Source of the DNA: Adlercreutzia sp. ZJ304 | GTDB taxonomy: Bacteria > Actinomycetota > Coriobacteriia > Coriobacteriales > Eggerthellaceae | Direction: 5' to 3' | DNA length: 64,000 nt | Assembly (NCBI RefSeq): GCF_011039075.1 | Contig: NZ_JAAKEG010000001.1 | Location: 186,001 to 250,000 of the forward strand | Shown here: positions 28,579-30,754 of the stretch, one piece after another | How positions within the stretch are numbered: position 1 is the stretch's first letter | Layout of the letters: each line of letters begins with the position of its first letter | Translations under genes and position numbers: made by a program | The notes under the pieces: generated by a model | What the model was told of the DNA's origin: nothing | Seen by the model: the letters and a program-made list of their open reading frames with translations, nothing else | Database searches by the model: none

Positions 28579-29319
28579 CTAATCAAGTACGCGCCCAAAT
28601 GCCAAAGCGTATATTTCTTTGTAGCCAGCACGGCGCAAACAGTCGGCGGCGGCGTATAGGGTAGATCCTGTTGTACATATGTCGTCAAATACGATAACTT
28701 TGCGGAAAGTGGGAGATGCGGGCGCAAGTTTAATGGCTGAAGACATGTTTGCGAATCTTTCTTTGCGCGATAAATTGCGTTGGTCAATCGATTTTGGTGG
28801 CATAAAAACTCCGACGCAGTCAAGCTTTGCAACGTTAGCCAGCGTGCATGCTAACTCTTGTGCATGATCGAATCCGCGTCGTTGGCGGGCTTTTATAGTG
28901 TCAGGTATATAGGTTATAACGCAATCATTTTTCCAGTCGGGTGATATATAGCGCGACGCTATGTTTGCTATGGTGTAGGCAAGGCGGCGCTCTCCCTTGT
29001 CTTTATATGTTTTAACTATGCGTTTCACTGCGTTGTCTGCCACCATTGCATATGCCATGTTGTTAAAAGGTACACTTTCTCTGTTTGCGCTAGCAAGCAT
29101 TAACGGTGTGCATTCGGTGCATTGTGTTCTTCCGTATGGTGCTCCACATATTGGGCATGCCAGATATGTATCTATATACGGTAACTTTTTCAGGCAATGC
29201 TCGCATATAAGCATGCCCGGTGCGTCGCATATTGCACAACGTGTCGGCCATATAGTTTCTGTGGCTATATCCGCGGCTACATGCAGCGCATTTTTGAAAA
29301 ATTCTATTGTATTAGTCAT
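28579..29319 (-). CDS. comFC: ComF family phosphoribosyltransferase-like protein
   Basis: A 246-residue protein with an N-terminal zinc-finger region (CAICDAPGMLICEHCLKKL, then CPICGAPYGRTQCTEC) and a phosphoribosyltransferase fold ending in VIVFDDICTTGSTLYAAADCL, the PRPP-binding loop. RQRRGFDHAQELA is also conserved. ComFC proteins are needed for DNA uptake in competent bacteria and are found in many non-competent ones. No comFA is adjacent. It converges with the glycosyltransferase gene, 14 bases apart. Confidence 0.88.
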   Translation of the reverse strand: MTNTIEFFKNALHVAADIATETIWPTRCAICDAPGMLICEHCLKKLPYIDTYLACPICGAPYGRTQCTECTPLMLASANRESVPFNNMAYAMVADNAVKRIVKTYKDKGERRLAYTIANIASRYISPDWKNDCVITYIPDTIKARQRRGFDHAQELACTLANVAKLDCVGVFMPPKSIDQRNLSRKERFANMSSAIKLAPASPTFRKVIVFDDICTTGSTLYAAADCLRRAGYKEIYALAFGRVLD

Positions 29320-29527: not shown

Positions 29528-29533
29528 TATAAT
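29528..29533 (+). promoter_or_regulatory. -10 element for the structured RNA / lipoprotein leader
   Basis: A perfect TATAAT just upstream of a GC-rich structured stretch. The predicted start at about 29540 coincides with the 5' side of the RNA's closing stem. The 200 bases between it and comFC are AT-rich and hold no gene that I can see. Confidence 0.6.
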
Positions 29534-29540
29534 TATCGAA

Positions 29541-29778
29541 TATGCTTCCTTGGGTCTGTAGCTGCGGGATGTTCGCATCCTTAGTCCATGGCAGATGCGG
29601 TCGAAAGGATCCACGTAAAGCGGCTTTATAAGTCGCTGAGCATGGCGTATTCTAGAAGTAAGTCGCACCGCCCGTTGACTTTCCGCGATAAGGTGTCGCG
29701 GCGGGCGAGAGGTTCAAGCGGCAACGCGTAGACCCGGTGTGCGTGTGTGGGGTCAAAGGCTAGGTCAGCTGAGGAAGC
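29541..29778 (+). ncRNA. unassigned structured RNA candidate (about 240 nt)
   Basis: A GC-rich block in an AT-rich gap, with ends that pair: GCTTCCT (29544-29550) and AGGAAGC (29772-29778). Inside are hairpins at 29567-29580 (GGATG-TTCG-CATCC, a UUCG tetraloop) and at about 29620-29637. A nested stem at 29669-29707 has CGCCCG / CGGGCG around CCGCGA / TCGCGG. Another stem joins GACCC (29731-29735) to GGGTC (29750-29754). It contains no long open frame. I checked by eye for RNase P, tmRNA, SRP, 6S, and common riboswitch cores and could not match any. It may be a stand-alone RNA or a long leader of the lipoprotein gene 50 bases downstream. Confidence 0.55.
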
Positions 29779-29830
29779 TAATTGTTATGCGAGCAAACCT
29801 AAATAACAGGTGTTGCTGAAAGGAAGATGC

Positions 29831-30754
29831 ATGAAACGTTTACGTGCTGCAATAGCTATATGCTTGGTAATCGTGATGGCTTTTGCACTTACGGGATGCC
29901 AACAGCAAGAATACAAACCCGAGCTTGGCTCTGCGCAGGTCCAGCCTCCTACTATTGGAGAAGATGGTGTTTTGCGCGTTGGTGTGAACACTAACAAGTC
30001 TCCGCTTGCCGGCATGGGTAACGACAAGATAATAGGTATCGATGTAGATATAGCGGCTGCTTTGGCTGACGAATTGGGTCTGAAGGTCAGCATTGTCGAT
30101 GTTGGCAATAGTCCTGATGCTGCTCTAGAAGACGGCACTGTAGATATTGTTATGGGCATTGATAGTGCAGAGTCTCTTGAAGGTGTTTGGTTATCTTCTC
30201 AATATCTACCAACTGGTGTAGCGCTGTTTGCTTTGGAAGGCAGCAATGCTAAAGTTCCTACAGCTGATAGTAAGCCATCCATTGCTGCGCAGGTTTCCTC
30301 AAAAAGCGCATGGGCTGTTACCAATGCGTTTGGCGAAGAAGCTCTTTCTTCGGCAAATGATTTAACAAGTGCTGTTAACCAGCTCCAATCAGGTCAGGTT
30401 GACTACCTTGCATCTGATGCTGTTATAGGAATGTATGCCGCTAATCGTACAGGTGCTAATGTTGAGATAGTTGCTTTAATTGATAGTGCTAGTGGTTACT
30501 GCGTGGCTCTCTCTGAGTCTAATACCGAGCTACAAAAAACAATAACAGATTCGCTGCAAAACTTAATTTCTAACGGTACTGTGGGCGTTATAGAGCAAAA
30601 ATGGTTAGGTGCTGAACTCGATTTGGATAGCGTGGCGCAGGCTGAAGTAAAGAAACAGCAGACAGATAATGCCGAAGAGCCAGCCGCAGGAGCAAACTCA
30701 AGTAGTTCATCTTCTAGCGCAAGTTCTTCTAGTTCATCAAGTTCTGCCGCTTAA
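29831..30754 (+). CDS. amino-acid ABC transporter substrate-binding lipoprotein
   Basis: A 307-residue extracellular solute-binding protein of family 3. The signal peptide ends in the lipobox ALTGC (residues about 20-24), so it is lipid-anchored. The binding domain has LRVGVNTNKSPLAG, IIGIDVDIAAALADELGL and VDIVMGIDSAESLEGV. The C terminus is a Ser-rich tail of about 25 residues. No permease or ATPase gene is near, so it must work with a transporter encoded elsewhere. ATG at 29831 follows AAAGGAAG; a slightly longer frame upstream lacks a ribosome site. Its leader includes the structured RNA candidate if the same promoter is used. Confidence 0.88.
   Translation: MKRLRAAIAICLVIVMAFALTGCQQQEYKPELGSAQVQPPTIGEDGVLRVGVNTNKSPLAGMGNDKIIGIDVDIAAALADELGLKVSIVDVGNSPDAALEDGTVDIVMGIDSAESLEGVWLSSQYLPTGVALFALEGSNAKVPTADSKPSIAAQVSSKSAWAVTNAFGEEALSSANDLTSAVNQLQSGQVDYLASDAVIGMYAANRTGANVEIVALIDSASGYCVALSESNTELQKTITDSLQNLISNGTVGVIEQKWLGAELDLDSVAQAEVKKQQTDNAEEPAAGANSSSSSSSASSSSSSSSAA

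Follow-up and report, generated by a model that had tools for sequence, protein, structure and literature searches.

The window, which is the whole 64,000-nucleotide stretch of DNA that was analysed, carries an ordinary, intact raiA RNA (ModT, RF03072) between a divergent comFC-like phosphoribosyltransferase gene and a gene for an SBP_bac_3 solute-binding lipoprotein (Table 1). Using cmscan, RF03072 was matched at 29545-29777 on the forward strand with 141 bits (E = 8.1e-35), relative to a curated gathering cut-off of 101.3 bits, and the match is complete, extending over model positions 1-209 of 209. This was the single Rfam match within the whole window, a permissive search of the RNA region revealed no second family above the cut-off, and a single copy of the raiA RNA is present in the genome. 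The RNA, which a preliminary description based on the letters alone had considered unassigned, thus belongs to a family that has already been catalogued and structurally solved, and its identity is not new; the Rfam search which that description had proposed returned a clear known class and makes the RNA an ordinary one. Its other readings of this region were largely accurate, including the exclusion of RNase P, tmRNA, SRP and 6S RNA, the prediction of a conserved structured RNA (approximately 240 nt, against the approximately 235 nt determined here, with coordinates correct to within a few bases), and the presence of a lipoprotein gene downstream. The raiA RNA is among the most conserved bacterial RNAs without a known biochemical activity.

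Table 1. Features of the raiA RNA locus, with positions counted from the first base of the window
Feature	Position	Strand	Evidence or remark
comFC-like phosphoribosyltransferase gene, divergent	28579..29319	-	PF00156 and PF18912
TATAAT, -10 box of the RNA promoter	29528..29533	+	Read directly
raiA RNA (ModT, RF03072), closed by helix P1	29544..29778	+	Covariance-model match and covariation in 48 relatives
UUCG-capped hairpin, an insert relative to the Rfam consensus	29566..29581	+	95.7 % of cells paired; 5/6 pairs with compensatory change
Branched arm with inner hairpins, including 29683-29688/29696-29701	29664..29741	+	Covariation in relatives
Spacer from the end of the RNA to the lipoprotein start codon, including AAGGAAG (29820-29826)	29779..29830	+	No intrinsic terminator
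SBP_bac_3 solute-binding lipoprotein gene	29831..30754	+	PF00497, E = 2e-17

The ends of the RNA pair as had been predicted, with helix P1 formed between 29544-29558 and 29766-29778, and the GC content of 0.52-0.61 within the RNA contrasts, as noted in the preliminary description, with 0.28-0.37 in the AT-rich upstream gap. The folding energy is no better than chance (z = -0.66; 50/200 shuffled sequences fold equally well) and, not being significant, was dropped as support for a structured RNA, with covariation taken as the evidence instead. For this, forty-eight raiA RNA copies were aligned without structural guidance, and the pairs scored were the Rfam pairs mapped onto the window. Three of these were excluded as non-standard there, and the set was extended by one pair of P1, by the inserted hairpin and by the hairpin at the distal end of the branched arm. 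The named pairs form in 90.9 % of cells, compared to 35-48 % when the partners are slid by one to three columns, and cells changed on both sides number 489 versus 69-147 in these slid controls, which are biased in favour of the structure by its placement via the window itself. Compensatory change is found in 47/65 pairs, and the count of such changes is far beyond this placement bias, so that the covariation check proposed in the preliminary description supports the structure.

The UUCG tetraloop (29572-29575), which had been recognised in the preliminary description, caps the 6-bp hairpin that the Rfam consensus lacks, and on the basis of its position this hairpin is probably the optional helix P2 of the published model. 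P2 is present in that model but lacking in the ModT of Clostridioides difficile (PMC11706538), and the hairpin thus distinguishes the RNA of the window from its C. difficile counterpart. Within the branched arm, helices 9 and 10 are 100 % paired across the 48 relatives, with compensatory change in 8/10 pairs, and helix 11 is paired in 85.7 %, while the innermost helix 13 lacks support (19.7 % paired). The nested 12-bp stem described previously does pair, but rather than a single stem it comprises two stacked helices (29669-29673/29703-29707 and 29683-29688/29696-29701). In three short raiA RNAs of 169-192 nt (L110, L158 and L163, from genomes G205, G387 and G435, respectively), only one hairpin remains of the equivalent of the branched arm, whereas the conserved core is retained, and the arm may therefore be dispensable. 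Three-dimensional structures of raiA RNAs have been solved (9CXF, 9ELY; PMC11751092, PMC12286853) and contain the pseudoknots pk-1 and pk-2, which are not part of the nested Rfam model.

The raiA RNA is near-universal in the order to which the window belongs, probably within the class Coriobacteriia, with RF03072 found in 193/199 genomes (191 above the cut-off), including scores of up to 173.5 bits. It also occurs in 39 of 41 close relatives and in 110/296 genomes of the phylum. Four of the six genomes of the order without a raiA RNA also show no HPF gene, and some of these absences are thus probably due to incomplete assemblies. The score in the window is lower than that of many relatives, and this, together with the weak support for the innermost model helix in the branched arm, could be taken to indicate a decayed, non-functional copy. 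Such decay is highly improbable, given that P1 is fully paired and the core helices pair, that a perfect TATAAT precedes the RNA, that it is the sole copy in the genome, and that two genomes of the same genus retain raiA RNAs with comparable scores of 138.4 and 136.9 bits. In genome G170, two contigs each carry a raiA RNA copy (L197 and L198), and both copies have a lipoprotein gene homolog behind them.

The TATAAT sequence, correctly read as a perfect -10 box in the preliminary description, places the transcription start near 29540-29541. A sigma-70 scan of the window detected no recognisable -35 box in front of this sequence, which also lacks a TG extension. The relatives have a -10-like box at the same site, mostly of the extended TGnTAnnnT type, for example TGCTACACT or TGGTATAAT. 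The presence of an intrinsic terminator in the gap ahead of the lipoprotein gene was considered and rejected, as terminator scans found none there in the window. In relatives, scans of the corresponding gap gave two matches across the 26 family loci, with one of the two located beyond the start codon, and none across 22 other class loci. On this basis, RNA polymerase is expected to continue into the lipoprotein gene, which is probably located on the same transcript as the raiA RNA, with the 3' end of the RNA presumably made by processing. At L111 (G206) and L184 (G031), the RNA is separated from the lipoprotein gene by a longer gap (104-120 nt) that contains a GC-rich hairpin; the hairpin in G206 is terminator-like and is followed by TATAAT, which suggests that the two are transcribed separately in that genome.

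In 26/26 loci of the window's family, the RNA is immediately followed by a homolog of the lipoprotein gene in the same orientation. The same arrangement is found in 18/19 loci sampled in other families of the order, 3/3 loci elsewhere in the class and 22/23 and 20/20 further class loci, giving a total of 89/91 loci in 90 genomes. The gap between RNA and start codon ranges from 21 to 120 nt in the family (median 37.5; 25/26 at ≤65 nt) and from 26 to 128 nt (median 44.5) in the other class loci with a called start, and overall the spacing varies up to approximately 150 nt. In several families (L009, L016, L122, L135-L137 and others), two SBP_bac_3 genes are arranged in tandem behind the RNA. By contrast, in other classes of the phylum the lipoprotein gene adjoins the RNA in 0/33 loci, of which twenty-one have an HPF (RaiA) gene downstream instead. 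A review, citing earlier work, has noted that the raiA motif often precedes genes encoding RaiA or periplasmic binding proteins of unknown specificity (PMC11477304); the linkage is thus known in kind, and the counts and spacing come from the present analysis. The linkage of the lipoprotein gene to the RNA in the class is much tighter than would be needed for a passive neighbour; it is real and class-wide, although it is not on its own proof of a riboswitch.

Genes for comFC and/or HPF are common, but not required, neighbours of raiA RNAs, with comFC, the usual upstream neighbour, found in 74 % of cases (PMC11706538), and comFC is present at the locus in the window. Most of the other families in the order have comFC upstream of the RNA in the same orientation, and an HPF gene is commonly found behind the lipoprotein gene. 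Among the 26 loci of the window's family, 18 have an inverted comFC, four have it on the same strand and in four it was not found, and an HPF gene is absent from the fetched flanks; that of the window's genome is on another contig. The simplest history would be one in which comFC-RNA-HPF is the older arrangement, into which the lipoprotein gene was inserted in the class, with subsequent rearrangement in the family. Association of the RNA and the lipoprotein gene is broken in G028 and G033, where the RNA is kept without the lipoprotein gene and HPF adjoins it instead, and in G040, a small genome of the same order in which the lipoprotein and HPF genes occur (L181, first 520 bases) with no RNA ahead of them.

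Rfam labels the RF03072 type as "Cis-reg; riboswitch", and the preliminary description left the choice between a riboswitch and an independent RNA. The RNA in the class could, also or instead, be a cis leader in which ligand- or growth-dependent refolding alters expression of the lipoprotein, or it could act in one pathway with that solute-binding protein. The adjacency of the gene in 89/91 class loci, the gap of usually 25-65 nt without a terminator in the window's family, and the different DMS reactivity of C. difficile ModT between growth phases (PMC11706538) are compatible with such a role, and metabolite riboswitches are likewise structured 5' leaders near genes for transporter components. 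Unlike these riboswitches, however, the RNA of the window has no terminator or coevolving sequestering pairing in the gap, and the raiA family has trans activity elsewhere (PMC11706538). Although the 5' strand of P1 can form a duplex of -10.9 kcal/mol with the Shine-Dalgarno region in the window, a translational switch of this type was rejected, as the cognate duplexes have no advantage in strength over swapped combinations (permutation fractions of 0.29 and 0.14) and the two regions do not coevolve, while helix P1 itself passes the same permutation test (fraction 0.0). At the window locus, neither a terminator nor coevolving masking of the ribosome-binding site, which could serve as an expression platform, was found. 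Considering also the variable spacing and the genomes with only one of the two partners, a cis leader or shared-pathway role appears unlikely; if true, the class-wide linkage would point to the activity of a major orphan RNA.

Of the two options, the independent, trans-acting RNA is favoured. ModT of C. difficile complements in trans, in agreement with observations in C. acetobutylicum. A cis riboswitch is thereby ruled out in these two clostridia, and ModT is very abundant in C. difficile (PMC11706538). The raiA RNA helps clostridia to leave exponential growth. It is very likely that the RNA of the window would similarly be transcribed from its own promoter, be co-transcribed with the lipoprotein gene, obtain its 3' end by processing and act in trans like ModT, with the trans role being carried over from the spore-forming clostridia that are the source of all functional work. 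From its own -10 promoter, the transcript would fold into the compact raiA structure, while polymerase would run on through the terminator-free gap, so that the lipoprotein mRNA would derive from the same transcription unit, and processing up to helix P1 would produce the 3' end. By analogy with clostridia, the released RNA would accumulate in exponential phase as a very abundant, stable, free RNA and would act in trans in timing the move into stationary phase. With its near-universal raiA RNA and near-inseparable lipoprotein gene, the class forms a useful second place for testing the function of this RNA.

The RNA of the window resembles the raiA/ModT RNAs of C. acetobutylicum and C. difficile in its secondary structure, comFC neighbour and single copy, and fills the whole family model above the curated cut-off, a comparison for which no clear -35 dependence is needed. 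The loci differ in their surroundings: the clostridial RNAs are followed by a RaiA/HPF gene or a PTS operon rather than by a solute-binding lipoprotein gene, and the window is further distinguished by its divergent comFC and by the location of its HPF gene away from the RNA.
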